Of a stretch of 64,000 nt of DNA, positions 14,701-55,266 are shown piece after piece (position 1 is the first letter of the stretch; the number at the start of each line of letters is the position of its first letter). The position numbers were made by a program, and so were the translations under genes. Below the pieces are notes generated by a model that searched no databases, was not told where the DNA came from, and saw only the letters and a program-made list of their open reading frames with translations. The stretch covers positions 28,904,405 through 28,968,404 of the forward strand of contig CM056743.1 of assembly GCA_029851415.1 (NCBI GenBank), written 5' to 3'. Origin of the DNA: Eretmocerus hayati (Eukaryota > Arthropoda > Insecta > Hymenoptera > Aphelinidae).

Positions 14701-14833
14701 CACTCCGAATAGCATCTCGGAGCATGTAATGATTCTTTAAATCATATTGATGGTGAGTCTCATTGAGAAAAGTGATAGGGGGTATATAACTATGCGCCGA
14801 AAAAACTTTGTGCCGAAAAAATATCGATATCAT
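11780..14833 (-). CDS. Ankyrin-repeat protein with PRANC-like C-terminus (copy 2), 5' end replaced by a transposon terminus
   Basis: One frame of 1017 residues, a tandem paralogue of the 4827-7853 gene along its whole length, with about 15 ankyrin units and a PRANC-like tail (LPALCIEEIIHHLSDFDL). Homology to copy 1 begins only at PITFLNETHH. The 18 residues before it (MISIFF to SYIP) are encoded by the terminal inverted repeat of the 21-kb element, which interrupts the gene after codon 8. The original start (ATG GGT GTT TTA) is 21 kb away at 35837. The reading frame stays open across the junction, so a chimeric protein starting at 14833 is possible if a promoter is available. Otherwise the next in-frame ATG, in the conserved NHYMLRDAI, could be used. 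I see no stop or frameshift in the body. Function is as for copy 1; expression is uncertain. Confidence 0.85.
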   Translation of the reverse strand: MISIFFRHKVFSAHSYIPPITFLNETHHQYDLKNHYMLRDAIRSGNKALVQLLIESGAPVNLKTPHPVHTPLHLAVISRNCEFVEILLDKGANISAECYEGDSPLTMAARMENTSVIDLILSYDVKNYQNRDKFSHLHVACMRNSLNLVKKLLQLNQGEHINEAIKEDSLFYSGYTPLHCAVLFGCIEVVEFLLHCGADITIKDAKGMTALHLADHLRNEAIIDLILAAHIYVFSNPANSQGLTHYHIACTRDNPSIVEHFVKMADPVYCQVKLPWEGWGALHFAMYYECLNVIKLLMETPASLRNQQYLLLLKCAFLTKKESIYAILTNEHFSFTHYLKYKRLSWPLRVARCENVTECFAKLRSEGNMNDTDDFLSATWNGLPSLALAVRCKSVAAVKYLLDHDANVVMQDTLGKTPIHIAFESKSTEIFTLLLEKFENVPGNAVDDVGFSLLHILCTTNKCKVIQYLITNGADVNAQVTFGSPFWSGFTALHFAVKYHQLEVITLLLEYGGNVSLKNGLDKSPFDMIIDELNVDEHATSSKNVLAKMLLSIHSAPSTADGSLKYQKFPSTHILSIICQLNSGELLTHLSLHPDEINGIVQLPEFQEFNKSTPLHLSMRFGHFQQAKLLLSNGANPNLINNDRETPLECAFSHHPPHDDSIAECENLFFYTCVKFTREFKPTHFHIACALGFLSVIRFVLNDVADRQLKKKFINCLNDANQTPLHVLLLQGHRNAPTKEIVQSFLDNGADINARDYQLQTPLHYAQTLDPDLLLLLIKNGADVNARNIFQETPLRKFCIAIFTEKHLQQQNSSWFCKQITILLEHGSDINIVDYTGRSCLNFFRDCKALHEQRWKEIVVLFLKQFTKLHCLGLHSSPINIYLCQNIPQSSSDSFDRVSFARQCAEEKNSMASVKLDNHSTLFDVLLKTPERMVYYCNNHDLESITSNSDLRTKYPIYGYLLKLQMERGKSRCSLLEPSRKSLVALLGRSLPALCIEEIIHHLSDFDLRNIILAVEM
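14775..14779. repeat. Target-site duplication, left copy (ATAGG)
   Basis: ATAGG directly precedes the left terminal repeat and recurs at 35812-35816. Joining the two flanks with one ATAGG gives GTGATAGGTTCTATTGG, exactly the sequence of the uninterrupted paralogue at about 7831-7847. Confidence 0.85.
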
Positions 14834-14873
14834 AGTGAATGTGGCCGCGAGTCGCTTGAAGTTACGAAGTCAA
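14780..14873 (+). repeat. Left terminal inverted repeat of the 21-kb element
   Basis: About 94 bp; carries GCCGAAAAAA twice, followed by ATATCGATAT. The base changes at 14831-14834, compared with the right copy, create the CAT that serves as the ATG of the chimeric ankyrin frame on the minus strand. Confidence 0.85.
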
Positions 14874-15955
14874 AGTAACCTAGCCAGACGCATACAGAAC
14901 TGGCAATTCTTAACGCGAAAAGTTCAGTCTGTCCACGACAAGTAGCTGGAATGTGTTCTTCATCTGGAAGAAAACTCATGCAACTCGCAGTTATAATGAA
15001 CATGCGGTTAGATGTGAAAAAAGATGATTCTTGTTTAGAGATTCGGCGACGAATATTTCTTTGAGATTTCATTTCATGTAGATTTCTCGAATGAATCGTA
15101 TTTGTTGCTTATGTGTATGGAGCAAAACGATCTTTAAAACGACCTTGTTCTAAAATGTAACCAGTCAAATCAATTCTAAAGAGCAATTCTTTACATTCCC
15201 CTTGTTTAGTCCATTTTGATACATTTTTTATCACTCATCTAATAACTCAATGAAGAACACATTCTCTTGTGATGAAAACGCCTCGAAAGTCGGTAAATTG
15301 ACAAGGATAAGTGATAATTTTATGATATTTGGGGTGATCCGCTCGATCTTTTTTACACTTCGTAGTATTGAATTTGATCACTTAGATGTCAAGCCCGACT
15401 TTGCTGCTGAGGGATAGAAAAATTGCGAACATCTGGCTTTTATTGAGCGACAAAATTTGAGAATTCCGCTAATGAAATCGGCCTGAGCAAAGTTTACTCA
15501 ATTTTTTCATAGTTACTGAAAAGGATTGGGATAGAGGATCCGATGGGCTACCATGGGATGAGATTCGCACAACCGGATATATTTGTTGAGCGTTTTACGA
15601 TATGGGACATTTTTTCAATAAATTAGAACGAAGATTCAGAGGAATAATTTTTTGGTCCCTGCTGGGCGGAAATATGTTTTGAATCAATAAAACCTCCTAT
15701 TTTCTTATATTCATCAGTGAACATGAATGAAAGCTGTCGACAGTTCTCGAGCAAAAACAGACCCTAAATGACAGGGATGATGGAACTTTGCACAGTAGCA
15801 AAAGGGACACACTTGATGAACAATAATCATTCATTTAATTGTATATACTGTACATTATACATTGGCAAATATATTGGCAACAATATCACAACATTTTTAA
15901 TCAAAGAATAGAATAATTATAATCAACACAAAGTAGTCCTAGTCCACACTTATTC

Positions 15956-18900
15956 TTAAGTTAATCTTCTGCTTTTTACGGGGATGACGTAATCATCAAA
16001 ATTCTTAGGCTTTGGTGTCCTTTTACTCCTACCATTTCCTTCTTTCCTGCTATCTTGAGGTTGGAGAACACCTTTAGACGTACCTTTAGTCATTGGTGTG
16101 GCTTTTCGAGGATCTGCAAGAATTACTAATTTGTTAAACTGATAATACTGAATTACTTGGAATAGAGATATCCCTGGTTTGCTCAATCAATTCAGATGCC
16201 ATTGACTCAAAAATTCAGATAAGAGCTAAACTTATCAATCTCTTCTTGTGTGGACTCAAATCGGAATGGCTAAATGTCAAAACACGATCAGACCTGTATT
16301 TAATCTCCCGATCAAAGTGACATCTTTCCTATAAATGGTAGTTTTGCTTCGAGATGTAGTGACTATTTACGCTTGTATATTCAAACTAGAGGGTTGCTGG
16401 AATTCAAAGCATGAATCGTCGAGTTCCAATGACGAATATTTATATTCAAAGTCACGACGAAAATTCAATTGAAGCAGAGAAGTGGTATCTTGTCGCAAGA
16501 CTGGCGAAGTACTAAGAGTTGCTCAAAAGATAGCAAAAATGATGGCACTTTTGCCAGTATTACATGAATTGGTTTTACCATGTTGTATATTACGTTCACT
16601 TCATTTCTGTCTCAATGCAATCACGCAATATCCGTAAAAGTTCCAGATAAAATCAACCAATTATCTATATGTTGGATTTGAATGAAATCTTATCCACCGT
16701 GAAAGAGGCTTCATTTCCAATCAAAAATGAATCCAAAATCGAAAGTGAGTAGTTCCTCTCCACGTTACCACTGCTCGGATAAGTTACTTGAGACTCAAAT
16801 CATTCGATAATGCAATGAACGGAAAATATGTATGGTGTTATGAAATTTCTATCTAGAATCGATGGCAGATCAGAACAATAGTAGATTATGTACCCGAGTG
16901 CCGCAATCGCGGATTTCCATGACGAGTGCCTGCACAGGCTGGAGCCTACAGGCCTGCACCAACAGAGGCCCCCACCAAAGTGAACGACGGAAAAATGTTG
17001 ACTATCATTAGTCAAAAAAGGCACGCGTGCAAAATGTGGTCTTGAAAATATCTCTTTTGATAAATATTATGTTGACTTTGCACAATCTAGAAACAGAGTT
17101 AATTCTTCCACATTGGCCTCTATTCAAGTTTATTAGTCAGATTTTTAATGAAGTCAATGACTTTTTTACAAAATTTAAACAAACTGGAAACTGGAGTAGA
17201 GCTCAGAGTTCCAACGAAATAATTGGTTTATGCAATTTTTCGATGTTTGGGTGCTCGTAAAACTGCAAAAAATGGCATTTGCGCCTTGTTCATGGGTTTC
17301 CCGCTTCTAAGCGATTAATTTGTCTCTCGCCTGCGGCTCGGGCCGAAAACCAAATTTCTCAGAAGCGAGCTAGGACCTCATAAACATGGTGCAGAATATA
17401 CTGTTTCGTTAGTTCGAGTATACACGATGATACGAGTATACGTTTACAGTTTTTTTTGGATGACCGAAACTGAACATTTCTCTGAATATGGAATGAAATA
17501 AGGTAAGTGTACCCATCTTGCTTCTACATGCCAATCTCAGCCATGGATACTCGTAGACTTTCCCGATAATTTTTTTCTACATTTATTATTTTAAAAATGG
17601 TGCTTTGGATCGACTCCGAATCATTTCTGCGTTTCTTAGGGAATTTAAAGTGATTTTTACATTTTTCGTGTTTGCGCAGCTACGAATTCACTGAGGAAAT
17701 TGCGTTCAGTAAAATTCGCGGCAAATTTTTTAGATCCACCAATCTCAACGTAGTTTAGCACATCTGATTTCTTTTTTGAAGCCCTTCAAAACGTTCTTTA
17801 GAATTGCGAAACTCGGATCTGGAGCTATTTTATGAGCAAAATATGAAAATGCTTTGTGGAGCAAGAAGGCCAACATCATAGTGTACCCAACATGCCATCA
17901 CATGGTTATCTCGAAAGAGCATGTAGTTATGCCTTTTTTACCGCTCAGAATGTGTTCATCGCATCCAAATGGATCGAAAATAGTGGTTTGGAACGGCTTG
18001 AAGCTCCAAAGGTGGTTATACGGCGATGACAACGGATGGAAACAATTTCATGTAATTTATCGCTGATTTACATTGAGTTATATGATGGGGGCAAGTTGGG
18101 TATACAGTTTTGTAAACTCTTAAAAATCATTTTTCGGCAAAATTGAAACAGCTCGGCTCCAGCTCATTCAAATAAGACGCATCGTAGCTCATTTTGAAGG
18201 TCTTGAGACAAGCTTTACAATAAAATGAAGTGCGTTGAAAAATATTGAGATTGGCCAAGAGAAAATGCCTTAATGGGGGCAAGTTGGGTACACTTATCTT
18301 ATAAACCCATCAGTCGTCTTTATCACGGACGTTCTTATTCATAGAACGTGATCAGATGATGACGAGAATTCTGAAATTTGTGATTGATGTTATATCTGAT
18401 TCGAAAGACGACAAACTTATAATAGAATTTGAATCATAACCGTTTCTAACGTTTAGTTCGTGAAACGTGCACAGACATTGCGCGAGAACTTGATTCCACG
18501 CACAGTTTACCCGTAAATGTAAATCTGTGCGTGAAGTCATTTCCGCATTACTTCACGCAATGCGAATAATGAAGAGAAGTTAGATTTTTTTAGAACTCTG
18601 CTCACGAAATTGCAAAATAGTACATTTCGCACCGAGTTCATGAGGTTGTAGCTCGCTTCTGAACGATCGCTTTTCGACCCGAGCTGGAGGCGAGGGTTGA
18701 AATGATCGCTCGGAAGCGGCGAACCTCATGTGCAAGGTGCGAAAGTTATTTTTCGCAATTTTGTAGGCGGCCAAACATTTAAAAATTGCGAAAAAAAAAA
18801 TTTTCTGCGGAGATCCACGATTTTGCTGCAAGGTAAGCGCGTAGAGTTAAGATAGAAAGAATACATTTTCAATGCTTATGAAATTTTATGCAATATTATG

Positions 18901-21900
18901 CCAAAGTGAAGATGTTTCGAAGGTAACTAGAAATGTCCAATAATCAATGATGGTCAATTTTATTGCACGAAACCCTCAAATTTTGGAAACTTGACAAATT
19001 AGGAAAAACGCTCCCCTTACATAGGCCCTCACCAGCTTGCTGCCTACGAGCCCCACCCCAATTTAATCCGTCCCTGTTTGCAGCACTAGTCATGGGAAGC
19101 CGCGATTGCGACACGATGTGCATATGATTTTTTATGATGGCATAGACGCGCGCAATGTGCTTAATTGTAGCCCGGCGACCATAAATGATTTTTTCACCTA
19201 AAATATTGATTATTGAACAGATCGAGATATTTCTACACTCTAAGAACACCGAGAACTAATTCATGGTAACTCACTTTGAGTCTTAATGCATTTTGCGTCT
19301 AGATTTTTTTTTTCTAGCATCTTTTTGGTATGGCGAGTATTCTTCTGGGGTAAAACTGTTTTCAATGCTCCTTGTTCCTTCTCCTTAGTGCTGCAGTCTA
19401 CTTCACTGATTTCTCGAGTCGCCCCTGGAATCAACCAAGAGTTTGAAGCATAAACTAAATCAGACTGTATCGTTTAGGATTCTGGGACGTTATTGGCGCC
19501 AGTCTGTACTGTTCTGTATCATCATCCTAGCGTGATTTCACCAATAATCCATTTTCTCATAACTGCATATGTTTCATTTCAGAGAATTTCGCGATGTGAT
19601 TTTTGGAATATTTTCCGGGCCCTCCCTGGTGACAGCATTCCGTGAAATGCAAGTGTATGAAAGAAGAAATCGATTGAGATCGAGGATATATTGCCGTGAT
19701 TACGATATTCTCACAGTTCTTTCGATAGAAGAATTATTTCAGAAAAACAGTCAAACACTAGGTCAATAAAACCGAGCAGTAGGGGCTTGCCTTAAGATCC
19801 GCGTAGAAAATCTAGGTTGATTTAATGTGAGTTGTTATCTGGACCAAAATAACTTCAAAATGAAAAGTCACAGCGTTTCTCACCTTCCTGTCCCTTTTCT
19901 AACAGAATGTTATGAGTGGAAGAAGTTTCTCCTGACGAATTCAGTTCATTTTTTTCCGAGGCAGAGTAATTCATGGCTGTGGCATCTTCAATGGACTCTC
20001 CCTGCGATCCAAAGATCGAGTTAGATGAGTTTCTCTCTGAGGAATTCTCAATGAGTTCGTCTACCACTGGGGCATAGGATTGAATCAGATGCGATTCTTC
20101 TGTTCCATTTCGTTGACTTTGTTCCAACTCTACTCCTGAGTTTTCGTTGTCATAAGTCTCGAATAGGATGGCTGAAAAGAAAACAGTTCTCAATTAAATC
20201 AGCTCGATTGACTTCATTTAACCAATCATCCGTTGCGACCGTCTATTTGAGTACCTTCATCGACTTGTTCAAGCGTCTCGGAGAGGGTCTCATCATCTGT
20301 ACTGCACGTCGAGTCTGCGAAGTGTAAAATTCAAATCAGGTACTGAATTCTCAAGATATTGATGCGAAAAATCATAATCGAGATTATAAAATATTTGCAA
20401 ATTTTGCTGATAGCAGCCCAAAAAATCCGCGTTCCATTCGTTGTGGGTGCGTTGCAGCGTTTTGAAACCACTGCTATTGTGTTCTATAAGTCTAATTATG
20501 TAGGTAATGATTTTTCGGATATGTTTCTGGCATACTGCTACGAACTGCCACCGGAGCCATCAGTTCACGAATTAAGCAGAACCCGTTGAAATCGCTGTTT
20601 TCTTAGAAAAATACTTTCTCTGCGATTCGCGAAGCATTCTGACGTGTAAGAGAAGAATTCAAATCAGATTCCAATTCTACGTCAAAAAGTCATGAAAAAA
20701 ATCATATACGCGTATGGTGGACATTTCGGACCCAAAATTTTGGTGATCGAATACAAGGACGTAGAAAACTCAGAAAATCAGATACTCGCCAGACAAAAAA
20801 TTCACACAAAAGAATGTCAATAATGGTAGAAAAATTCATTCTAGAGTACCGCGAGGTGCACAAATCTACAAATGTGAAAAATCTTAGTTAGGGATTTTGG
20901 TGATGGAAAAAATCAACCTTGAAACCCAGATACACAATGAATCCACATATGCTGAATTGACTCACTTCTAACTACACATGTGATAATAATCAAGCTTCAC
21001 CACAGGTGATTAGAGAGACTTAATGCCCACAGTGTAACAAAAAACGAGGTTGGAAACATTCAACTACCTTTATTCTTCCAAAAGCTACTACCCATCGAAA
21101 GTGCCATAATTGTGGGCCTTTTGACGCAAATAACTATTCTTTCTCGTCAACAAAGTTTGTAGACAATACCAGAACTTCAGTCAGTGTATACCGAAGTATG
21201 TGAAAATCTCACTCAAAATACATCCACATCCATGCAGGGAATTTCGAGCTCCAGATTCAAGAAGGGAGCGAACGCAAAGGTGGGAAGAATGTGGATGATA
21301 TATTTCTCTTCCGGGAGCATTAGTCGTGACAAAGGGAAATCGTCCAAAAGTTTATGGTCGAGTTGCATCTTTGATTTTTCGATTTCGCTTCAACAGAAGG
21401 CTAAATATGGGTCTCAGTGCCGTAGGTACTAGAGAAATTTCTTCAGAATACTAGAAGAAATATTTTGCAGTTTTCATGTAATAGTGGAAGAAGAAATGTT
21501 CAAAGTTTTCTCCTAGACCTATCAAAAAAGTGTCAAGCAACTCGAGAAGGGCCATTCGAACATTCAATCACCTGCATCATCTTCATCTTGGATCATCAGC
21601 TTTTCTTTCTCGTACGGTGCATTGAATCTCTTCAGAGTGTTAGCCGCTTGTTCCAAGAAGTGCAGGGGAAGCAGACGATCGCCATTGGTTTTCCCAACAT
21701 CTTCCCATGCACGTCTGAGAAACTTCTCATTGAAGTCTGATACTGCATTCCTTGGTCTTTGATCGAAGCCTTGCTTCACCTGCTCCAGTTCTATGTGTTT
21801 CATCTGCTGAAATTCGAGCATCCGGGCTATGCAAACGGAGAGAAACGGTGATTATGAATCGCAGAATTTCGTCCAATGTCCTAAGTCCCATTCCTGTCGA

Positions 21901-24900
21901 TTATTCGAAATCAACTCATTCCATTACTTACTGAAGTAGGTCCATGTCGATGGTCTTCGATGTCCAAATATATGATTGAGATCTCTGTGATGAGTTTCGA
22001 TCGCATTGTTGACTTTGATGAATTCATCATAGCAACAAAACGTTGCAGGCTTCCGGATTTTTATCCAGTAGTTCTGTATATAATCTAACATTCCATTAAA
22101 GTGATTGCCAAACTCTTCTTTTACTTCATCTTTGAAAGCGAGGAAGGTCGGCTCGATGAGCTCTTCTGGCAGCAGGGCTAAAGCCATCAATTGTTTTATC
22201 ACCATGTACTTCTTAGGATCCTTAGTTGACATGGTTGGGTATGCGATACCTAGCCCCTCTGCATACCTCCATAAGCACTAGATAAATTTGCAAACTTACA
22301 TCCACAGTATCAACTTGACCAATATCGGTATAGTGTATAGATCGTCGAGATCCCCATCATGCATTATATCAACTACACGGCAAAGCCCGAGAATTAAATT
22401 TGGCCCTATTTTTGATAAGTGAGAAGAAAAACACTGAATTTGATACTGTCAAAATAAATTCATCGGTTATACGAGCCAATTCCATTTATCATTGCCAGGT
22501 AATAACTGACAATGATAAATGGAATTGGCTCGTATAACTGATGAATTATTGTAATAATATCAAATTTCTGCACGAGCGATAAATGCAAACGATCGATCCC
22601 TACTGTATCGATCAAAACTTTGATAAATACTCTGAATTCACTTTTAATGAAAAGAAAGTCGACATTTCAGGCTAGTGTAGCAGGAGATGAAATATAGAAT
22701 CAGATTCACGTTCAGCGACCCAAGGAGCTGATATACATGATTTTCATCGATTTTCCACATTTCGACTGATTTTGACCTTCAATATCTCGAATAACGATAA
22801 CCATCATCAGGAGGGTCTATTGAGAGTTTCGAATGGAATCCCCCTGTATCTCTTGGCAAACCATGTGAAATTCATCCCGAAATCATTTATTCCCTAGTAC
22901 GTAATACATGCTCTATCGAGGCCCAACTCAACTTTTCTGAGGTAGTGAAATCTGTGACTCATTCTAAGTTTTGAAACCTCACCTAGGATCATGATACAAA
23001 AACTTAGAATTTGACGTGGTTCTGATATGATAGTGGGAGTATGCTTCAAGACTCAGAGCTCAATGAATTCTATAATTGGAGCGAGATAGGCATTTCTCAA
23101 GAAATAATATCATGAAATTTTACCTGGCACCAGTGGAAAAAACATCCGATGATGACTGCTCCAAAAACTTCCTTTAAAGCATCTTGGAGGGCAATCTCGA
23201 AATCAACTAGACCCTTGCGTATTGTGACCTTGAGAGTGGTTTTCATTTCTCCGAACAAGGTTACGTAATACGGTTTAGCCTTGGAAGGCATGAGGGCCCA
23301 CGCATAAGCAAATGCCTGCAACGGATAGACATTTAATGATTATCATATTATCTATCATATCTCCCTAAATATCTCGTATTCAACTCAATTGAGCTCATGG
23401 CATTAGGAGATATCAATAGAATTTCACTGCGTGAGTCAGATTGAGAAAGTGGCGGTGTGGGTTGACGATTTGAGAAATAGCGAAAAACGTACCTGTGTGT
23501 AAAGCCGAACCATGAATGTCAAGAGTTGGTAGAGTCCTTTGATTTTGATTCTCGCTAAGTACGTGCAGTCAAAGTGGCCTATTTCTCCTTTTTTTGCATT
23601 CTTTGCCATCTCAATATCCCATATCAGCAACATAGATTCTTTCCCAGATCCAATCTTCTTACAATCAAATTTGACATTAGGCATCACTCCAGATGGATCT
23701 TCTCTAAGCAGATAGGATTTCCCTTCTTCCGTTGTGAGATAATCACATAGCTCTTCGAGAGTCTTTATCCCCCTACGTCCTGTTTTTTGTCGCTTCCTTC
23801 TGTGGGTATACATGCTTTTCCTGATATTTGGCATGAATGGCATAAACCTTGAGACCATAGTGTGCCTGCAGGAGGGATGACGATCTTCATTTCTCTTCAA
23901 TCCATATTGATGTGATCCATTTTGATATTGTATTTTTCAGAAATGATGGATCATGTCGTTTTTTACTGAATCAGCTTTTCACCCGGTATACTGTGTCGTA
24001 TGAAAATTTCAAGAGAGGCATTTCAAAATTCGTAGAAAATCTATCAATTCGTGTATCTAAAATATTTTTCCATGATTTTTGACTGATGAAAATCGACTTT
24101 GAAAAACCAAAGTAAATTTCCTTTTCACCTAAGAAGTTTCATTTCGAAGGTCCTCCATTCAGTCGTAAAAATTGCAGCGAGGTTTTGTTGAAAGATCCAT
24201 TATCCACGATTTTCTCATTCTACACGTTCCTATGCGACCTATCGCGTATTGAGACCCGATCTTCGCAGAGAAAACATTTCATACGGAGGGTTTTACGTAG
24301 ACACGGGACTGTGCACTAGCTCTACTTCTTGTCGCTTCATTCAAGTGTTGAAATCTATCCAAGAAACATGGAACAGCATGATTTTACCGTAAATTTTTGT
24401 AATATTTCCGGATATGTTATCAGATTCGGCTCCAGATATGAACGATGAACGCTATTCCCATTTTCATTAAAAGAGAGATCGATGTAGGTCACGTTTGAGA
24501 TGGAATCTGATAGCATATCTGGAAAATTCGCGAAATTTCACCTTGGAATTATGCCCTTTAGTAACATTCTGGGTAGATTTTAATATTGCTATATAGCCAA
24601 AAGAAGTATAACCGGTGCACAGTTCCGTGTCTCTGTAGGCGCCCATACATGACATGTTTCTCTCCAAAGCTTGATACTGGAAAAAGAAAGGTCGTGGCAA
24701 AAAAGCAGGTTTTGAATTGTTGTTTTTTTGTTGAAATAATGTTTTCTCGCGTCATCTGACCTGTTAAATACGATGGCAGTATCGTAAGAACGCTAAGATG
24801 CGTTCAAAATGAGTAGAAAGTGTGGTGTTTTAAATATCGTATTGTGGTAACGATACGCTATCATTCTATTGGTTTTACAGGCACGTGGGAGAAAGTACTT

Positions 24901-27900
24901 AAAATTTGACTCATCGTGGAGTCTTGAGCTTACCTAAAAAATTCTCGTAACGCGTTTTCTGGCACATGAGCTGACACCTACTGTACATTCGACACGACTA
25001 TTTTTTGGCTCTTGCAATTAATTTATCAAATAATCACAGCGAACGAGGACTGCCAAACGTTATTTCCGAGAAAAATCAGTGTTAGTTGATTGGAAAAAAT
25101 TTTTTTTAAGGTCTGAGGGCATAACGTGCTGTGAGATTACGTTCTACGTCGGTGAATTTACAAGGAAACCATATTTCACTGAGAGTCTCATTACGATCCA
25201 AAAAATGAGTTGACCAATTTTATTGTCTAAGAACATAAGGAGCGTCGGTTTTACGACTCAATGTTTGAGATTTAGAGTCATCCTGACGCGCGAGCGTAAG
25301 ATGTTTCACGGATTCGGTTTCTGCGTCGAAAAAATAAAAAAAAGACGGTCTGTTCTATGAGACGTTTGAACCTCAAACGTTTGTTGCTGAGTGTTATTAC
25401 TGTTGACGTAAGTTGAACTGGAATAATCTTGAATAATGGAGGGAAACCGAGAGGAAAACAATGCTGCACCACCCCGGTTTGGGTGTTTATGGCATGCTAT
25501 GCGAAATCGGGATATAGTCAGACGGATACCAGTAAGTACACTCTAGTACATGAAAATTTGTCATCTTCCATTCGTGGTGTGACGTAGAATTAACCTCTTC
25601 CTTCATAATATCACTGGCTCAAGCCGATCAATAAAATTCAATCTTTTGTAATTCCCGCCAGTGACGAATTCATTACTGGATCCCATCGATCGAGTAAAAT
25701 ATTAGTTAGATTCATGAAATTTTCAATTTTTTCAAAATTATTCGTAAATATTATCGTTTGTCGTGGAGTAGAAATCCGCGTCTAAAAGGCACGATTCATA
25801 TTTTGCAGCCAGCCTTTCAAGATTACTTGTTGCGGTTTTGGATGATTCCACAAAGGCCTCGAATTGAGCGTCCAAGAGGAGGGTAACAGCGAAGAATTCA
25901 TTGCTGAATATAATTATAATTTGGTTCAAACCTCGTTGATCAATGTGTAAAAAATATAAAAATAATTAAACCTGGTCAAGAATTAATGCAGATTTCTTAT
26001 TTTTCAAAACGAAGTATTGACCCTGATGTCATCAGTGTTATGCTATCATTTTATAAATGGAACAATTCAATCAGAACCTAAAAACTGAGATAGCAACTAC
26101 AGTGGTATGGAACTAAAATACATAATCTGTAACACTGGTCAAACTTGTTTGAGGTAGCAGTACACCGTGAGTTTGTTTACAACGAGTCAACTTAACCTAA
26201 TTGAGAATACGATGAGTTCGTCTACTCCCGTTGAGAATATGACGAAGGCTGCTGGTGAGTTCGCATCATTATTCTTAGGACTGATTCTGTAGAAATTGTT
26301 GCTGACTATCTAAACAATTATGATATTATCATCTGCTGCCACAAAATATTACCTATCTACTATGAATGGTGTTTGATAAACTCTACTGTTATCCGCATCG
26401 TCCAAATGTTTACTCTCCCTCGATTTTTTAAAGATAAACCGACGGTCGTTAGAATCTCGGCGATGTATCCAGATCGTGATCCAGATTCCCACTTCAACCA
26501 CATTCTCCCCGAAATCGTCGGTGAAACGAAACATTGTAACACGGACCACACAGCTTTGAAGACTGAAACTAATACCGTAAGTGTTTTCAGAAGTAATCCA
26601 ATTGAGATTCCGCTGAGTTTAATTGCACTGAGTACCAAATTTTTCACTCAAAATAAAATACCAAGAAACAGCTTCACAAATGTCTAAATTATGTCTGTTG
26701 AGTTATGTAAAAAATTTTCACGTGTGTCAAAATGTGTCGAGCTTCTTTGCATGTGAAAGAACTTGATGATAGCGTTGAAACGCGGACAGAATCATACGAG
26801 ATAATGGAAATAATGATAATGTTGAGATAAAGGTTCAGCAATAAATATTCGAGTGACACGAAACCAAAATATTAAATTTTGCACCGAGTCTATGAGGTTA
26901 TGTTATAGCTCGCTCCCGGCCTGAGCTGCTGGCGAGGGTTGAAATAGATGTTCGAGAGCGAGGGACCTCGCAACCTAGACGCGAATACTATGTTATGCAA
27001 TTTTGCAGGGAAAATATCGGAAAAATACATGAAAATATTATTCTAGAAGCTTCAACTACAACGTCCAGTTGGGAGTAGTGAATCGACGCCTGGGCAATCA
27101 AGAGTTTCCGGTGGTCCGACAAAGTATAAGAAACGAAATATCATGGATGAGTTGATGCCAAAATCTGTATCTAGATACTTAAGAAAGCGACTACCGCCGA
27201 AGGAGATGCCTCAGACGAACAAAAAGCCAAAATTAATCTCAAGTGATAGTGATAGTGATGAGGCCTTGCGTACTGATGAGCCTTCAACTGCATTCTAATA
27301 TATTATACTTGAAACAGGTTCTTTTGCATCACTACCAATATCAATGTGTTATTTTTCGAAAAAGTACAAGTTATTAATGATAATTCGTTATGTTGAAAAT
27401 GCTCATTTCGTGTAGTATGGGTAAGGCACTAGTTGCCGCCCACTACCCAATAGTCACCAACTTTGTTAATATTATTGCAATAAATGGGTATTTCCAATCC
27501 CGATATCGATGCCATTACGGTGAAATATCATACTCTAGCCTTTCATTGAAAGGAGCAATGCATTGAAATCCAAGAATAACGTCGCAAAATATTACTCGCG
27601 ACAATTTGATTTGGAAATTACTCAAAAAATCTGCTCCCAAAAATACACAAGAAAATTTGCTCAATGTACGATTGGTTCGCAAAATCATACCGTTTGTGTA
27701 GTATATGAACATGAGTATTCCACGCTGAAGCCAATCGCGGAAAGGGATGTTTTATGTTTTGAGTACTTTGCGCAGAGTTTGTGAACTATTATTCACAGTT
27801 TATCAACTTATATAGTTTGATATGAGATTAAAACCTATTTTTCACATCCTCATGATGACTCCGATCCTCGCCAGCGGCTTGGGCCGCAAACCCATCACGC

Positions 27901-30900
27901 GGACAAAAAAAGAGTTTTTACATCCTTGTATCAAAATGTACTGTTAGCGTCTTTGTTGCCACGTATGCTTCTCCAACACAGTGTGTTGGAGGTGAATGAG
28001 TCAATGACTATGCGGCTGATAGAATTGCGTGTGGTGACAACTAGATTGGTGGGAAGCCATTAACGATTTCACACTGGGCCATTTCGGAGCATTTCGACGA
28101 ATGCCTGCACCAGGGGGGTCTGGAAAAAATCCGCAAAAATTTTTTTCTGTTAGTACTACGTTAATATAGTACAAAAAAATTTTTTTTGGATTTTTTCGAA
28201 GGCCCCTGTGGGCCCTAGGGCCCATAAAAGGCCTATTTTTGGCCCCTTTTTAGCCTATCTTGGGAGAATCATATCTCCGACCTGGTTTAATTTTCTTCAA
28301 CGTACCTGGGCGCATTCTTCTCGTCAAGACTGATAGTTTCAAGAAAAAAATTGTCCGAGACCAAAAATTTAGCCTAGCAAATTCTGCAAGCTATTTACTA
28401 AAGGCAGATTTTAGCGATTTTTAGGCCTTCTTCCAAGTGATCTAGCTCCTACTAGACATGTGATAATTGACTTTTGCGGGTAGTCATTTTAAAGGTCTTG
28501 AAAAAACCTACAATTTGACCACCTGCAGAAGTCGATTATCATATTTTTTATAGGAGCTATAGCCGATACAAGTTGAGCAGTTTTGTAAAAACGCCAAACT
28601 TTGAGCTCAATTTAAAAAAAACACTTTTTTTGTTTCGAGGTCTAACCTATGAGAAAATGTTCTTAAAAGCCCCGACTATCAACCCCAAAAATAATCTGAG
28701 TGGGATATTCAATTCTCGAATGCCAACACAGGCATGGCTCGCATATGCTTCCATCTGAGTTGTTGTGCACCAATCTGGGTGGAATTACTCCCCAAAGTAC
28801 CCCCAAATATGTGTAAGAACTTCCGGAGGCGAGCCTCAAGCCAGAAGCGAGCTGGAGGTTCAATCCACCAGGTCGAAAATGGGCATTATTTCGTCTAATT
28901 TCGGGCAGTCGAGCGAGGGCTCGACTCCCCGTGTTTCTGCTCACAAACGAGACGTGTGACTAGAATGGGGATTCAAACATGTTTTTCCGACTCAAAATGA
29001 CCATCTAAACACGATCCCGAGGTCATTTCGTCCCTAGGATATCATCCAATCCTCAAACGGCGTTAAACTCTGTAATAACAGGTTTTGCGCCTCTACTGCA
29101 AAATGACGATGATTTAGGGCTGAATTGACCCCAGCATCGTGTTTAGATGGTCATTTTGAGTCGGAAAAACATGTTTGAATCCCCATTCTAGCCACTCGTC
29201 TCGTTTGTGAGCAGAAACACGGGGAATCGAGCCCTCGCTCGCCTGCCCGAAATTAGACGAAATAATGCCCATTTTCGACCTGATGGATTGAACCTCCAGC
29301 TCGCTTCTGGCTTGAGGCTCAGCTCCGGAAGTTCTTACACATATTTGGGGGTACTTTGGGGAGTAATTCCACCCAGATTGGTGCACAACAACTCAGATGG
29401 AAGCATATGCGAGCCATGCCTGTGTTGGCATTTTAAGCAAAAAGTCGAAAGAGGGTGTTTTAAATTGGCTGAATAAAATCGAGAATTGAATATCCCACTC
29501 AGATTATTATTGGGGTTGATAGTTGGGGCTTTTAAGAACATTTTCTCATAGGTTAGACCTCGAAACAAAAAAAAGTGTTTTTTTTTTAAATTGAGCTCAA
29601 AGTTTGGCGTTTTTACAAAACTGCTCAACTTGTATCGGCTATAGCTCCTATAAAAAATATGATAATCGACTTCTGCAGGTGGTCAAATTGTAGGGCTTTT
29701 CAAGACCTTTAAAATGACCACCTGCAAAAGTCGATTATCACATGTCTAGTAGGAGCTAGATCACTTGGAAGAAGGCCTAAAAATCGCTAAAATCCGCCTT
29801 TACTAAATAGCTTGCAGAATTTGCTAGGCTAAATTTTTGGTCTCGGACAATTTTTTTCTTGAAACTATCAGTCTTGACGAGAAGAATGCGCCCAGGTACG
29901 TTGAAGAAAATTAAATCAGGTCGGAGCTATGATTCTCCCAAGATAGGCTAAAAAGGGTCCAAAAATAGGCCTTTTATGGGCCCTAGGGCCCACGGGGGCC
30001 TTCGAAAAAATCCAAAAAAAATTTCTTTGTACTTTATTAACGTAGAACTAACAGAAAAAAATTTTTGCGGATTTTTTCCAGACCCCCCTGGTGCAGGCAT
30101 TCGTCGAAATGCTTCGAAATGGCCCCTATACAGTTGCTTGCTATTTCAGGGCGTTGTAAATGAAACTGATGAAAAATGACTCGAAATTTGCAAGATAGGT
30201 TTCTTGTGACTGATCATTAGACACCGAATCTTCGCGTAAATCACTTTGTGAATTACTCCCTGTTTGAAAAGGAGATATCTACGCGCGCATATTTTTCGAC
30301 GACTGCAATATTTCTACAGGAAAAACTGCCATAAAGTGATGTTGCATTCTGCATAGCATCCAAGCAATCTCATCTTGATTCGGGTGATTGATATAAAATT
30401 GGAAAAACTCACTGCAGTGCTATTCTTTGATAGATATCCTTGAGATAACCAGATTCGTTCTTCGCTGCCGCGCAAAGAGCTTCATGGAAGGCACGTCTTA
30501 ATTTCAAGTCTGTCACTGGTTTACAGTTTTCATGATGAGGCTTAAATCTCACTCTTCCATCCTGGTACTTTATCATCCGCCCGAGACAGCTAAAGGTGCC
30601 CGGCTTGTTTTTGCGCTTTTTTTTGATGCACGAAAGATACCTTGCGAAAATAACACGTTTGTTGATCGGAAATCGAATTCTGGATTGTTTGTAATTGATT
30701 TGGAGAATAATAGAAGGAAATGCAAGGGAGCGATGAGAATTTCTAAATTAGATAGATAATGACGTAATAGTTGCCTTGATCCAATGAGTCCCCGAGGAAT
30801 ATCACACGGTAGACTCAAAGGAACAGTTGTCATGAAATACGAAAAGTAGTCCGCGAATTATCTCTTTCACCTCAAATCAAGTTGCTTTAGAGTGATTTCT

Positions 30901-33900
30901 CGATGTTATCGTTAGCATTCCCGTAAACACAAGCCACTCACGGATATTGTCGGTACGTGCTGGTATGTCTGTTTCATTTTTTATGAAAGATTTTGTTAGA
31001 CTCACTGTGTATATTTCGGCGCTTTCGGTGGTCCGTCTGATTTGTACGCGTAACCATCATATATGTTCAGAGTAGATCCATACTTTTTACCAGCTACATA
31101 CGGAACACGGGTGGGTGCAGGATCTGCGTTGTTTGGAGATGAAGGTACTACATCAACCTGCCCTGTTCAAAAACAGGAGAAAGTCTAAAATGAGTGAAAA
31201 TCTAAGGATTCATCAAGTTTTGGAACACACTTTTTGGGATTGTTTCGAAAAACTCCGATATCACTCACATCGATTATACTTACTCTGATTTGTTGTCGTG
31301 GAACTTATTTGTTGTGCTGGATCAGCGGATGTCGATGGAGCGAGTGCTGTTGCGTGACATTCTTGGTCAATAACATCACGACACCTTGATGTTTCTGGTG
31401 GCTGGTTTGTGTTTGGATTTTTTTTCTTCCCAGCAAGTAAACGGAAGAATTTGAGTGGCTGGAGCGGTTTTTTGACTGATGATTCTCGTTGTAGTTGTAG
31501 ATTAGTTAACGTGCAACCTTTGCCTACAGAATCTGAAAATCAAAATGATTTGGTCGAGCAGACTACTACATGAACGATCTTCGATGGTTCTCTGTGTGGG
31601 CAGATTTGGTTAATTCTATTTGAAGGTGAAGTCCAATGTATGGATGGAATTTCAAGAGAACCATGCAGTTCTTCGAAAGCATTCGACGTTTCTTGCAACA
31701 TCCTATCATTCGAACATGCGATCTATCCTCAGTAAATTGCATTATTGTCGAATATCACTCATAAATAGCGGCTAAAAACGTGTACATTTTGATAGCCATC
31801 TGGATATCTACTGTTAGCGAGAGCAATTCCTATATGTAATAAAGAATTCAAAGTCTCGTCGATCTTGGAGGACGGTGGGGATTCAAATAAATTTCCAAAA
31901 ATGTATTGGAGGAAAAATGTCTGCTTCTTTCGCTACTCTAAAGCCACGATTGACGATTTTTGCGAGAAAGTTGGTAGCGTGCCAAATTTTTTAAGCAATT
32001 TCGCAATGCATCGCTGTCAATATATTTCTAATACTTGCAGATTTTGATTGTGAGAATTTTGTCACTCATAGACAGAAAAGCCAATATTTCTTGGTCACTC
32101 AAATTTCACAGTCCGAGAAATGATGTTGCAAATGCGAGGATCAGGTTTTGATTTGTGATTTATCGGAGACGATTGAAAAGGAGAGATCTGTGGAGATTGC
32201 CTGAATCTAGCGGAGCTCATGGTAGGACTACAGCGTCAGGGCAGCTAATCCGCGATTCTAACGCTGCTCTAATTTAGTAAGAACATCCAAAAGAGTCATT
32301 CTAGCTACAAGTGTGCGTGAATTTGAGTTTTTTCAACACTCCTGACACAGGCCCAAAGAGCTTTAGAATTAGACTCCTGGATTGATACATGAATTTCATT
32401 CCCGCGGGGAAGATAGCTTCTTGGTAAATGAGTGAGGTTTTCTTGGATTTGAAGTGAAGTGCAGAGCTCAAGATGAATTTTTTCTTCATTATACAATTCG
32501 AGATTTACTGAACAAGGACTTATTATTGACAATTCGTTGTGATATATTTCTGAAATCCTGTGATATAGAATGGGTCTTAGGAAGTCAAAACACATTAGAA
32601 AGATATATTTCGATCCATAATTAATGGTGAACATCAACGAGACCACAAAAATCTACTAAGACTCCGGGATAGGATGGAAATAATCTTGTAAGCACTAATT
32701 GTGAGATATTGAAGGAAAGAAGTTCGAATACGTTTTCGAAAGGCTATATATTGGTAATATCAAGCAATCCTCGATAAATGTGAACAATCATGTTGAACAT
32801 TCTTTCGGATCCGAAGCTCATAAGACAACTTTCTCAACGAACAATTTGAAGGGAAGTTCTGCGAATTTTGAGAGCCTTATAACGATGTATCTTTGCCGAT
32901 ACATCTTCCGTGCTTCTATTTTCATATGAAAATTCCGTCAACGTTTCGGTCGAAAGAAAATCCCGATTTCCCATGAGACTAGAGCTTTACATTTCTTGAG
33001 CTCAAATGATGTGAGCAATTCCTACGGAAACTAAAAACAGAGCTTTTTCTTGTAACTCTTGTATGAGAGAAGAAAGAGTCAATCTTGACAGGGCTACAAA
33101 ACGTGTCTGGATAGAAGGATTTTCATGAATGGCGATGAAACGATTCAGATGTAGTATTGATATTATCTAAATAATTTCTCATTTTCCCTCACCTTGGTTC
33201 CTCAGAGTACTGACGTCCCCCGGCGTCCTCGGTTGTTGAAGCCCAAGTGATTCTCCAGCATCTTCCGCAGAACTTTCGTCCTCGCGCCTTTTTCGCGGTT
33301 TGAAAAATTGGGTGATGGGGAGTTGTAGAAGTTTCTTCAAGGGTTTCACCAGTGTCTTCATTGGGTGGTGTGTTTGACTCGAAGAAGGCTGCTCGACGCG
33401 CCGAATGATCGGCAGCACATTGTCCTTTGGGTTCAAAGAGCTGCATTGCGCTATTCTTGGAACCTGATGTGACATGTTTCAATATTATAAGGATGGTTTT
33501 GATAGATTTCACAAAATATCATGAAGATTTTTCTGTATGAGAGGCATTTCATGAACTTCCAGAATCGGCATGTAACGCACATGCTTAAAATCAGTCAAAC
33601 GTTTGAAATTTTTTTGTATTGCCGTGGTCCAAGTAGGCTACGTACAGTTTTTGATTACATACATTGTTTTCCCTCTGACTTTGCATACATAGATCTCAAT
33701 ATCTTGTATTCGACAACCGCGCGAGAGAATAGTGGCAAAAGGCAAAAGTTGAGTTTTTCACTCATAAGTTATTGCAAAAGGTGAAAAACAGACTTTTTGA
33801 CCTGCTAAATTCGACATCACGCAATTTTCAAAGAAATGAGCTGGCAATTTAACGGAGTCAACTCAAGAGGACTCGGAGTCAAGATCAAGACGATATTAGA

Positions 33901-34748
33901 TAAAACTAGTGCTATAGTCGATCTTGCAATGACGATGTTCATTCTGACACATGAGGTGAGATTAAAACTCCCCAATTAATATGGCTAAATATTTCAGAGC
34001 AAATACCTTTTCTCCAAGGTCTACCCTTGCGCTACGTTTTCTCAAAACAACCTCATCATTAGATGACTTAGTTGAATTTTCAGCTCATTGCGTTGAAAAT
34101 GGGGTTCTTGAGAATTTCTTCAGATAAGGTCATTTTCTGCATTTTTTGGATTTTAGTCGTCTTTGAAATCTTTCATTTGACTTTGGCAATCATCTGAGTT
34201 CATTAGTCCATTACAAAGGTAACAAAAAGGCTACAAAAAGTTTCGAAGCCAAGATATTGATTATAGATATAGGTCACAGCATCAATTTTTCCACCTGGGT
34301 CGAATCGTGCCAGCTAACGGTCAATTACTTTCGAAAGGATTCTTATAATAATGAGTATTGAATTTTTGACATTTTCGACCTCTTGGACTCGATTCAAATG
34401 CGAATAATTGCATTGACAATTTGAGCCATTATCAATATTTTTATGAATTTTGTCTGAGTTGCGTGCAAAATGATCCGACCTTGAAACCATCAACGAACGT
34501 ATGTATTGTAGAGAAGGAAATCAGAAAAAAACCGCAAATAAGCGGGAAATAACTGGAATAACGAAAAATAATGGAACGAAAATAATTGACGAATTAATTG
34601 TGGATAAAATACGACTGAAATGTGAGCCGTGACAAGATACTTCAGTTACCTGTAATGAGCTGCTTTTGGAAGAAATTACTACGACGGGTCGCTTTAAAGG
34701 CACTGCCGCGTAACCGGAAGATGCTGGCGATCTGACAATTCCCTCCAT
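15956..34748 (-). CDS. FLYWCH-like / MULE transposase-class protein, 13 exons, 924 aa
   Basis: Exons (minus): 34748-34650, 33463-33193, 31532-31284, 31162-31006, 30589-30413, 23865-23493, 23315-23124, 22277-21932, 21826-21572, 20314-20255, 20171-19884, 19424-19275, 16113-15956. All twelve introns are GT-AG and phase-matched; the sum is 2775 nt with no internal stop. Residues 21-31 (PVVVISSKSSS) look like a SUMO-interacting motif. A basic patch near 95 holds KPRKRR. Residues 235-281 (NIYDGYAY, CLGRM, KPHHENC) resemble a FLYWCH zinc finger that lacks its central WxC. Residues 319-621 form a MULE DDE domain: D417 in HFDCTY, D480 in LVDFEIALQDALKEVF, the C-x2-H of GCFFHWCQ at 500-503, and E600 in NNAIETHH. 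The acidic Ser/Glu-rich tail ends in a basic segment, KPKNFDDYV. The intact triad fits an active transposase; the many introns and long tail also fit a domesticated nuclear factor. A microexon may be missing between exons 4 and 5. Confidence 0.85.
16899..17014 (+). repeat. Dispersed repeat, copy in inverse orientation to 18941-19114
   Basis: Shares CGCAATCGCGG, CCATGACGAGTGC and TTGACTATCATTAG-type blocks with the reverse complement of 18941-19114. It lies in the last intron of the MULE-type gene. It is a diverged transposon fragment of unknown class. Confidence 0.5.
17270..17395 (-). repeat. MITE-like repeat, 'GAGGT..AGCTCGC' family
   Basis: An inverse-orientation member of the family also seen at 18604-18763 and 26874-27005. 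It shares TATGAGGTCCTAGCTCGCTT (as the complement), a GGCGAG core and a CCCATGAACAAGG end. Each copy is itself an imperfect inverted repeat. Confidence 0.5.
17499..18303. mobile_element. Non-autonomous inverted-repeat element, about 0.8 kb
   Basis: The left end GGTAAGTGTACCCATCTTGC pairs with the right end, whose complement reads GATAAGTGTACCCAACTTGC. A second internal GGGGGCAAGTTGGGTA lies near 18087. It encodes no protein. ATAAG precedes both ends when read outward, but a clear target duplication could not be fixed. Confidence 0.6.
18604..18763 (+). repeat. MITE-like repeat, 'GAGGT..AGCTCGC' family
   Basis: An imperfect inverted repeat: AAATTGC and TTTCGCACCGAGTTCATGAGG on the left pair with the complement of GAACCTCATGTGCAAGGTGC and TTTCGCAATTT on the right. 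It is in intron 12 of the MULE-type gene. Confidence 0.6.
18941..19114 (-). repeat. Dispersed repeat, partner of 16899-17014
   Basis: Read on the minus strand it carries CGCAATCGCGGCTTCCCATG and TTGACCATCATTGATTA blocks matching 16899-17014. Confidence 0.5.
22437..22566. repeat. Near-perfect hairpin, about 58-nt arms, 14-nt loop
   Basis: The left arm 22437-22494 and right arm 22509-22566 are almost exact complements. The inner 35 nt, around ACGAGCCAATTCC, show only one mismatch; a few more lie outward. The loop is CCAGGTAATAACTGA or close. It lies in intron 7 of the MULE-type gene. It could be a recent palindromic MITE or a source of small RNA. Confidence 0.8.
25738..25929 (-). CDS. Possible terminal exon, unknown protein
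   Basis: An open frame of about 55 codons after a plausible acceptor (TTATATTCAG) that reads NEFFAVTLLLDAQFEAF, then an alanine/glutamate-rich helix, and stops after NDNIYE. It lies in intron 5 of the MULE-type gene on the same strand. No upstream exon was found. It could be an alternative 3' exon, a small nested gene or chance. Confidence 0.2.
   Translation of the reverse strand: MNQIIIIFSNEFFAVTLLLDAQFEAFVESSKTATSNLERLAAKYESCLLDADFYSTTNDNIYE
26212..27298 (+). CDS. Small nuclear-like protein nested in the intron of the MULE-type gene
   Basis: Three exons: 26212-26254, 26434-26576, 27047-27298; 438 nt, 145 residues. Phases match: phase 1 (CTG|GTGAGT; acceptor after a strong pyrimidine tract, TTTTTTAAAG), then phase 0 (ACC|GTAAGT; acceptor TTATTCTAG). 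The N-terminus is MSSSTPVENMTKA. The middle exon gives DKPTVVRISAMYPDRDPDSH. The C-terminal half is basic (KYKKRN, RYLRKRLPPKEM, NKKPK) followed by the acidic serine run SSDSDSDEA, as in nuclear or chromatin-linked proteins. I do not recognise the family. An AATAAA follows 180 nt after the stop. It lies antisense inside intron 5 of the transposase-class gene, within the 21-kb element, so it may be a second element gene or a captured host gene. Exon 2 could start further upstream; exon 3 is the firmest part. Confidence 0.6.
26874..27005 (+). repeat. MITE-like repeat, 'GAGGT..AGCTCGC' family
   Basis: Contains TTTTGCACCGAGTCTATGAGG, AGCTCGCTCCCGGCC, GGCGAGGGTTGAAATAGATG and GACCTCGCAACC. It is closest to the 18604-18763 copy and sits in the last intron of the nested plus-strand gene. 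Confidence 0.6.
27479..27484 (+). other. AATAAA polyadenylation signal
   Basis: The first AATAAA downstream of the stop codon of the nested plus-strand gene. Confidence 0.5.
28076..30126. mobile_element. 2-kb foldback element with about 0.95-kb arms
   Basis: The two arms are near-identical inverted copies. The outer ends are GGGCCATTTCGGAGCATTTC and the complement of GCTTCGAAATGGCCCC. The centre lies near 29.0-29.1 kb and the whole length pairs apart from this short spacer. The paired open frames seen in both arms are mirror images and not genes. It lies in intron 5 of the MULE-type gene. The flanking 8-mers (TTCACACT and TATACAGT) match at only five of eight positions, so the target duplication is unproven. 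The class is unknown, possibly a hAT-type foldback. Confidence 0.85.
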
Positions 34749-34755
34749 ATACGCC

Positions 34756-35525
34756 TCTAAGAAACTAGTATTTTCCCAGGGCTCAAAGTTGACAGCATCG
34801 TTCGCTCGGGGAAAGATCAGAACTCTTGGTCATTTCTTTGCATTTGGCGTTCAGGATTATATTCCTAGGAATAATTGATACAAAATCCATAATTACATGC
34901 ATATTTGAATAGATACAAGAATTCATAAATTGAGTCACTCTCATGTATAGATATATGCATCATAACCTCGCGCATGCGCAAATAGCCTTACGAGTTCAAA
35001 TTTGACGCGCGAAAGAACTGCTGGTACAGTCCAATAATTTCCCGAAAATAGAATTAGAATAATTATTCCCTGTAATTTCCTCACCTGATCAATGTAAATC
35101 GTGTTGTAGAAAGGCACGGCCGAGAGTGAAAAAAGATGCAAATGTTAGGGTATGTTACTCAAGCCAACCTCCAAATCAACAAGAATTGAAGTGCGCTGCC
35201 AATAACATGTCTGCATCGATCACATTCTCCGCACTTCCATGTCCTGTTTCGTTCTCGAAATTCCGTTATTCTGCTTTCGAAAAAATCACAAAGCGATGAA
35301 CAAGATCTTCATTGTATGCTTATAGAAAAAACGGTGAATATCTCGTCTTGACATGAACACAGAATAATGAACCTCAATTGCGCACTTTCATGAAGAATTC
35401 GCATGTATTGACTTTTTTCAGAAAAATGGAGAACATGAGCAATAACTTGTCAATTATGATCACGCATGACTATATTACTTCAAAATTTATGTTTGCCATC
35501 CAGAATCTGAATCGTTTCACTTACC
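34756..35525 (-). other. Possible 5'-leader intron of the MULE-type gene
   Basis: A strong donor (CAAG|GTAAGTG, last exon base 35525) lies 0.8 kb upstream, and a good acceptor (TTTCTTAG, first exon base 34756) lies eight bases before the ATG at 34748. This suggests a noncoding first exon starting near 35.6 kb, close to the right terminal repeat. The stretch between holds no coding signal; the short frame at 34941-35141 looks like chance. Confidence 0.4.
34969..34980. promoter_or_regulatory. NRF-1/ewg-type palindrome
   Basis: CGCGCATGCGCA, which read on the minus strand as TGCGCATGCGCG fits the NRF-1/erect-wing consensus YGCGCAYGCGCR. It is 220 bp upstream of the start codon of the MULE-type gene. 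Confidence 0.4.
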
Positions 35526-35717
35526 TTGAATAGCAAAGCTTGATTATATATTACGAGCCTCCAAGAGTTAACTGGTCGGGAATTCGACACTTTGGCACAA
35601 CCCGAAATACGTTACCTTATCTATCTAATCCATCTGATCAAAAAATCATTATATAGGTGAGCTAAATCTATCTGATATTCGCGGGACTCGAAAACGGTAT
35701 TGTATATACACAAAATC

Positions 35718-35811
35718 TTGACTTCATTACTTCAATCGACTCGCGGCCACATTCACCACAATATCGATATTTTTTCGGCACAAAGTTTTTTCGGCGCATA
35801 GTTATATACCC
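35718..35811 (-). repeat. Right terminal inverted repeat of the 21-kb element
   Basis: The reverse complement matches 14780-14873 at all of the first 51 positions and about 88 of 94 overall. It carries the same double GCCGAAAAAA. It lacks the CAT that gives the left copy its ATG. Confidence 0.85.
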
Positions 35812-35930
35812 ATAGGTTCTATTGGTAAAACACCCATCTTCCAAAAATCATCAGCTTTATAGTTTTATGAAAATCTTCATATCCTTGGAAATCTCTTATT
35901 TTTTGAAGGCAGGCCTGAATCAAAAATTTT
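35812..35930 (-). pseudogene. Stranded 5' end of the second ankyrin-PRANC gene
   Basis: 35837-35812 reads ATG GGT GTT TTA CCA ATA GAA CCT AT on the minus strand, the first eight codons and part of the ninth, matching MVLPIEPI of copy 1. The next 90 bases match the 5' flank of copy 1 (7854-7945), including TCTTCCAAAAATCAT and CTTTATAG equivalents. The first five bases (35812-35816, ATAGG) are the right copy of the target duplication. The original promoter of copy 2 therefore lies here, cut off from the body. Confidence 0.85.
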
Positions 35931-36808: not shown

Positions 36809-37103
36809 TGAAAAAGGATACTCAAGTCTACAACTAATAAATTTGTACATAATACAGTGTACGCAATAAAAGTTTGAATTTACAAAATTAATCAACAAAG
36901 CAAAATCTCAGCACCTCATCGACGGAGAAAAATTTTGACCGAGAGATTCCAAAATTGAGAACAAATTCTAAGAATTTTTCATATTATTAAGTCTGCTTTA
37001 AAATTTTCGAAAAAACACTTTGGTATTCCAGAAGTTGTTTCTATTGGCGACTACCGTTCCAAAAGATTGGTTTTGCATAGTCCTGTGCTCAGTATGTACA
37101 TAT

Positions 37104-55142: not shown

Positions 55143-55266
55143 ATTGTATCGGGACTCGCTAAAATACTAGGACATCACTTTGGGATAAGCAACACTGGAA
55201 TCAATCGTACAGAACTAATAATAAAACTAGCTCAACTTGTTGTCAAATCATACTATCACAAACGTT

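Follow-up and report, generated by a model that had tools for sequence, protein, structure and literature searches.

A 64,000-bp stretch of the genome of Eretmocerus hayati (C3:28904405-28968404, hereafter the window) holds a 21,032-bp element with inverted ends that has moved as one unit, and that is very probably an autonomous, low-copy transposon of about 21 kb, mobilised by its own 917-amino-acid (aa) DDE transposase of the Mutator-like element (MULE) type and encoding, in antisense, a 115-aa protein that is probably accessory. E. hayati is a chalcid wasp, a parasitoid and a biocontrol agent against whiteflies, according to its genome report (PMC10482854). All genome-wide searches described here covered the 692-Mb genome.

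Ends, target duplication and empty site

The boundaries of the element and its target are as follows.

14780..35811, whole element, 21,032 bp
14775..14779, left target-site duplication, ATAGG
14780..14873 (+), left terminal inverted repeat, 94 nt
14788..14821 (+), 16-bp repeat in 2.1 copies within the left end, mirrored at 35770-35803
35718..35811 (-), right terminal inverted repeat, 94 nt
35812..35816, right target-site duplication, ATAGG
7831..7835, empty target site in the paralogous ankyrin gene, sequence ATAGG

The two 94-nt arms are 94% complementary, matching at 88 of 94 positions compared with a maximum of 40 in 2,000 shuffles of both arms, and a 23-base piece of the terminus, with up to three mismatches allowed, occurred in the window only at the two ends of the element and never in 100 shuffles. 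ATAGG stands immediately outside each end. Aligned separately rather than joined, the left flank (11799-14779) matches the paralogue at 4852-7835 with 80% identity and the right flank (35812-35862) matches it at 7831-7878 with 82% identity; the two alignments share exactly 5 bp of the paralogue, 7831-7835, which read ATAGG. The window thus contains the empty site itself, and the duplication is 5 bp. The initial annotation of this DNA had described inverted repeats of about 94 bp around 21 kb, ATAGG on both sides and a paralogue that serves as the empty site, and these three descriptions are confirmed. It had also named the 5′ end of the second of two ankyrin-PRANC genes as the target. The insertion point does lie close to the 5′ end of that gene's open frame, but the PRANC scores in the two flanking ankyrin genes, 20.3 and 14.9 bits, are below the Pfam cutoff of 25.8.

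The 16-bp repeat within the ends is a candidate transposase site. On the ankyrin side, the open frame at 11780-14869 (-) continues into the left end of the element after the insertion, with an in-frame ATG at 14833-14831, and the left end could supply a new start codon for the interrupted gene.

Transposition of the whole 21-kb segment

A copy on another chromosome, at C1:82333482-82356608, matches the window element over its full length: the alignment falls into five blocks, each 99.6-99.9% identical, and the 21,052 aligned bp contain 33 substitutions and three gap openings. The alignments end at the terminal bases despite about 500 bp of flank per side in the query, both ends of the C1 copy show 100% identity over 101 bp to their counterparts in the window, and the copy has its own 7-bp duplication. 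Because this copy matches throughout, halts at both ends and carries its own duplication, the 21 kb moved as a unit, as had been supposed. An assembly join near either end, which had been raised as a possible source of error, was not seen: the second copy ends at the same two bases, and the assembly is of HiFi reads with a contig N50 of 7.96 Mb (PMC10482854).

The C1 copy carries two insertions that are absent from the window, at C1:82336561-82338064 (1.5 kb) and C1:82346816-82347402 (0.6 kb), the first of which has inverted ends. Within the window element lies the following segment.

28076..30125, nested palindromic segment, arms of 559, 318 and 106 nt at 94-97%

This segment is found in the window and the C1 copy and not in C3:56032095-56067601 (C3:560), a further member of the family described below, which lacks two stretches of the window element, one of 2.7 kb that includes the palindrome and one of 2.3 kb. 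Because it is common to the window and the C1 copy and absent from C3:560, the palindromic segment is probably a passenger insertion that travelled along. Part of the 21 kb in the window is a later insertion, yet the elements of the second subfamily are also 20-21 kb long.

A low-copy family with two subfamilies

A terminus pattern of 35 places, searched with up to three mismatches and with the reversed pattern as a control, gave 14 matches in the genome and none for the control. Ten of these ends form five pairs, 20.3-35.5 kb apart, around the same gene content and each with an exact target duplication. Subfamily A includes the window element, and subfamily B consists of the last two elements in this list.

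Window, 21,032 bp, duplication ATAGG (5 bp)
C1:82333482-82356608, 23,127 bp, duplication CTTTTGA (7 bp)
C3:56032095-56067601 (C3:560), 35,507 bp, duplication GGTAGAC (7 bp)
C2:70219601-70240601 (the C2 element), 21,001 bp, duplication AAACTTTC (8 bp), subfamily B
C3:62744602-62764899 (C3:627), 20,298 bp, duplication TTGGGAA (7 bp), subfamily B

The initial annotation had suggested looking for full-length copies with paired ends and 5-bp duplications; four more pairs exist, but their duplications are of 7, 7, 8 and 7 bp, which makes the window element, with 5 bp, the exception. It had also allowed that the ends might occur only as solo miniature inverted-repeat transposable elements, which is not what was seen, with 10 of 14 ends paired. 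Its proposal of a giant, intron-rich family holds for two subfamilies. Comparison of the two subfamily B copies covered 110-111 bp at each end, where their sequences agree, and a 1,701-bp internal stretch, where they are 99% identical. The distance between the left end and the catalytic exon is almost equal in subfamily A (23439-14780) and subfamily B (70228389-70219601).

Three of the 14 ends are unpaired, at C1:98672644 (C1:986), C3:62881416 (C3:628) and C3:43087659. A search of 40 kb each for partners of the first two found none, the best other matches being only 16-17 bp; the flank of the third is a run of G, and no partner search was made for it. The catalytic exon is also present at C4:52996750 (C4:529) and C3:51400816 (C3:514), at 81-85%, and no element end was detected there. 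No short element with these ends was found among the pattern matches, which more diverged ends would escape. The low copy number together with this lack of short derivatives suggests either that the element seldom transposes or that shortened copies fail to be mobilised.

The 14th end is a second right end of C3:560, which also holds a 14.7-kb stretch without counterpart in the window element; its right end and the same flank are present twice, at C3:56067601 and 56075091, 7,490 bp apart, through tandem duplication or as an effect of the assembly. The C2 element contains a nested 0.53-kb repeat (C2:70229789-70230319) that is 95-98% identical at no fewer than 38 places in the genome (38 of 3,400 candidates were scored) and that also matches itself, more weakly, in reverse.

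The transposase gene

The element carries a transposase gene on the reverse strand, with the following structure.

15956..33475 (-), transposase gene, 12 coding exons, 917 aa
33193..33475 (-), exon 1
31269..31532 (-), exon 2
31006..31162 (-), exon 3, first half of a zinc-finger-like region
30413..30640 (-), exon 4, C-C-H-C pattern, FLYWCH-like by eye only
23493..23865 (-), exon 5, first catalytic D, D410, codon 23570-23568
23124..23315 (-), exon 6, second catalytic D, D473, codon 23204-23202
21932..22277 (-), exon 7, catalytic E, E593, codon 21998-21996
21572..21826 (-), exon 8
20255..20314 (-), exon 9
19884..20171 (-), exon 10
19275..19424 (-), exon 11
15956..16113 (-), exon 12 with stop

The predicted coding sequence comprises 2,754 nt including the stop, with exons in phase, no internal stop and 11 introns that are all GT-AG; the longest intron is 6,547 bp (23866-30412), and coding sequence makes up 13% of the element. 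An intact MULE-class gene of 13 exons had been proposed, and the uninterrupted MULE-type model stands, with 12 coding exons in place of 13. Several splice sites score low in rough matrices, and some junctions were set using the annotated C1 protein QAD02_020498 (P0001), so that the model is not independent of that protein, which runs from inside exon 5 into the intron past exon 11. The C2 element is the locus of a second annotated protein, QAD02_013036 (P0002; 689 aa), whose model includes an additional 5′ exon that was not found in the window.

The MULE domain PF10551 scores 29.3 bits in P0002, the subfamily B protein, above the Pfam cutoff of 27.6. D410, D473 and E593, in exons 5, 6 and 7, are presumed to form the DDE triad. 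The second D and the E are invariant columns in all five rows of the transposase alignment, and the first D is aligned in P0001, P0002 and P0005, P0003 being without that exon. FLYWCH gave no Pfam match in the window transposase up to an expectation value (E) of 1, and the C-C-H-C pattern in exon 4 was recognised by eye.

A protein search with the transposase returned five proteins, four from E. hayati and one from ENA (30% over 25% of the query), and an alignment-based search, in which the best 7,992 candidates by shared words were scored, returned seven, adding P0006 (26%) and P0007 (E. hayati). The distant relative P0006 has MULE and FLYWCH (PF04500) in its precomputed annotation. No close relative outside E. 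hayati was found in these protein searches, within the limits of that tool. Other MULE-like loci in the genome show 24-43% identity to exon 5; those at C1:93465317, C4:42175625 and C3:73734481, with 36-43%, are possibly intermediate lineages.

Selection on the transposase was measured as the ratio of nonsynonymous to synonymous substitution rates (dN/dS) between the window gene and other copies, by NG86 and, where computable, YN00. The NG86 ratio was 0.12 against the C2 element (713 codons, exon 10 not found, at a dS of 2.2 that is near saturation), 0.06 against C3:514 (YN00 0.09; 271 codons) and 0.14 against C4:529 (YN00 0.19; 111 codons, one stop omitted), and the C1 copy has too few changes for the calculation. 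These low values point to purifying selection on the transposase, with function kept over most of the divergence.

An antisense second gene

A second, conserved gene, ORF2, lies within the longest transposase intron on the opposite strand, consistent with the nested antisense gene that had been noticed earlier.

25436..25531 (+), ORF2 exon 1, antisense, in transposase intron 23866-30412
27047..27298 (+), ORF2 exon 2 with stop, predicted protein of 115 aa

Its two exons are separated by a GT-AG intron and are identical in the C1 copy. C3:560 has both exons, at 78% and 82% identity, with a stop codon in the second. For the C2 element, identity across the parts that matched is 54% in exon 1 and 73% in exon 2, and exon 2 is also present in C1:986. 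Over 44-56 codons, dN/dS for exon 2 was 0.23 against the C2 element, 0.12 against C1:986 and 0.42 against C3:560. Transposase exons 1-3 of the C2 element sit between its two ORF2 exons, so that the two genes interleave differently there from in the window.

An annotated E. hayati protein of 116 aa, QAD02_007746 (P0008), is a relative of ORF2, and P0007, numbered next to it, is the transposase fragment at C4:52996750. P0008 was the sole match in a protein search, with no relative outside E. hayati, and there was no Pfam match, both searches having used an earlier 78-aa model in which part of the 115-aa protein is missing. The first exon of that model, at 26213-26254, was dropped, as P0008 indicates 25436-25531. 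The stretch at 26213-26254, between the ORF2 exons, has a strong splice donor and is conserved in subfamily B (C2:70238310-70238364), and is perhaps an alternative first exon.

Proposed mechanism and rival explanations

Several observations weigh against an autonomous MULE-type transposon. Four of the five duplications fall short of the 8-11 bp given for MULEs; PF10551 in the window protein reaches 26.1 bits, just below its cutoff of 27.6; and a structure prediction of P0002 from the five-row alignment gave a mean pLDDT (predicted local distance difference test) of only 36.5. The dN/dS values were higher against C1:986 (NG86 0.27, YN00 0.43; 264 codons, one stop), C3:628 (0.31 and 0.56; 227 codons) and C3:560 (0.41 and 0.61; 642 codons with one stop, and no exon 7 or 8 found), and stops occur in exon 4 of C3:560, exon 3 of C1:986 and exon 5 of C4:529. 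The high ratio of C3:560 fits a decayed copy.

The three unpaired ends could be taken to mean that two unrelated small inverted-end elements enclose 21 kb of host DNA by chance, but the duplication and the empty site connect both outer flanks, all five pairs have their own duplications around the same gene content, no short element with these ends was seen and the C1 copy refutes this account, to which we assign virtually no probability. Just as little belongs to the idea that the second copy arose by segmental chromosome duplication rather than transposition: such duplications occur here, as the tandemly duplicated right end and flank of C3:560 illustrate, yet window-C1 homology ends at the terminal bases even with the flanks in the query and C1 has its own 7-bp duplication, which refutes this explanation for C1. 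A Polinton/Maverick or an integrated virus would agree in size, Polintons being 15-25 kb long according to a review (PMC6431247), but none of the 73 scanned open reading frames (ORFs) of at least 60 aa matched any Pfam family at E<=0.01. In total there are 93 ORFs of this length; the remaining 20 comprise six that had a separate scan, five that are exons of a protein itself scanned, and nine unscanned. In viral contigs the terminus had no match, and 132 stretches fit the peptide pattern, none encoding a transposase relative, leaving this explanation extremely improbable.

A less remote alternative, though still an unlikely one, is that a different transposase, one that shares these ends, moves the 21-kb unit in trans, the MULE gene being a passenger. 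The short and variable duplications, outside the 8-11 bp rule for MULEs (PMC6446971), favour this view, as do the other MULE-like loci with 24-43% identity to exon 5. Against it, the transposase keeps its position in both of the diverged subfamilies and evolves under purifying selection, and no other gene of known domain was found among the ORFs scanned. We prefer an autonomous transposon and infer that catalysis is by its own transposase. On the model of MULE biology, the product of the 12-exon gene would bind the ends of about 94 bp, with the 16-bp repeat as candidate site, and would pair them across 21 kb; the whole unit would then be inserted, presumably by a cut-and-paste route, with a stagger of 5-8 bp that yields the short target duplication. 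The 115-aa ORF2 protein is probably an accessory factor, as mudrB is for maize MuDR.

Neighbouring features

Immediately to the right of the element is a near-perfect palindrome at 37101-38025 with 459-nt arms at 91%. At 53049-57727 (-), open frames of 705, 401, 228 and 151 aa resemble parts of the gene of another mobile element, and the two longest are without a Pfam match. An Rfam scan of the window at gathering thresholds gave no matches.

Significance and comparison with known systems

According to a review (PMC6431247), DNA transposition becomes less effective once the cargo is larger than about 6 kb, and the first Pack-MULEs were no longer than the 7-kb full-length element. A family with a MULE transposase in an animal has recently transposed an intact 21-kb unit, with later insertions aboard, so this size limit is not general for the superfamily. 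The element offers a natural system for the pairing of ends 21 kb apart and for the role of a second MULE gene. A bolder reading, which we hold at somewhat less than even odds, is that of a separate, Polinton-sized MULE lineage that is giant by nature, with at least two subfamilies, no small derivatives, a dozen-exon transposase and an interleaved antisense gene whose protein assists in joining the ends 21 kb apart; the many-exon split would perhaps let splicing confine the transposase to some tissues. If this is true, such elements would be missed wherever surveys need the catalytic domain in one hit plus 5 kb of flank.

In its classification, the element has the transposase domain (P0002 above cutoff, the window protein just below it), the presumed DDE triad and the terminal inverted repeats of a MULE. 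Target duplications are given as 8-11 bp for MULEs and 8-10 bp for Phantom (PMC6446971), and only one of the five elements (8 bp) falls within these ranges. Because the duplications are 7 bp in three of five, 5 bp in one and 8 bp in one, it is not filed as a standard MULE and is a variant carrying a MULE transposase. A Pack-MULE, made of host gene pieces with no transposase of its own, does not fit the full transposase model.

Muta1 of Aedes aegypti and the Phantom/Muta group of MULEs are similar in being insect MULEs with a DDE triad and, ahead of it, an N-terminal zinc-finger region, to which the pattern seen by eye in the E. hayati transposase, without a Pfam FLYWCH match, would correspond. 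Muta1 encodes a 504-aa transposase, makes 8- or 9-bp duplications and inserts without obvious target preference (PMC5225508), whereas the E. hayati element has 917 aa in 12 exons, 21 kb and 5-8 bp. Maize MuDR, with mudrA and mudrB, likewise pairs a MULE transposase with a second gene of unknown biochemical role, and mudrB is apparently required for integration according to the same account (PMC6446971). ORF2 differs in lying antisense inside a transposase intron and in having no Pfam match (78-aa model).

A 2026 survey of arthropod MULEs, which includes E. hayati, reports a maximum length of 9,972 bp, terminal inverted repeats of 13-1193 bp and mostly a single ORF, and for Hymenoptera 2,172-4,113 bp with repeats of 126-514 bp (PMC13359780). 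The present element belongs to the same transposase superfamily and its 94-bp repeats are within the 13-1193 bp range, but it is about twice as long as the longest listed. The survey took tblastn hits over at least 80% of the catalytic domain and then 5 kb of flank (PMC13359780), a method that would probably miss this class of element because the catalytic domain is split over three exons within 21 kb; the element points to a blind spot in such surveys. No description of a giant animal MULE was found among the paper titles and abstract beginnings listed by the literature search, Repbase, subscription journals and supplements being outside that search.

Polintons/Mavericks share inverted ends and a size of 15-25 kb but have polymerase B, a retroviral-type integrase, a protease and an ATPase, none of which was found here (nine of 93 ORFs of at least 60 aa unscanned). 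The En/Spm (CACTA) elements of the red alga Chondrus crispus, of 16-20 kb with 4-5 ORFs (PMC6431247), are cut-and-paste DNA elements of nearly the same size that carry extra genes, although they belong to another superfamily and a red alga. Their existence gives the giant size of the E. hayati element a precedent in another superfamily.

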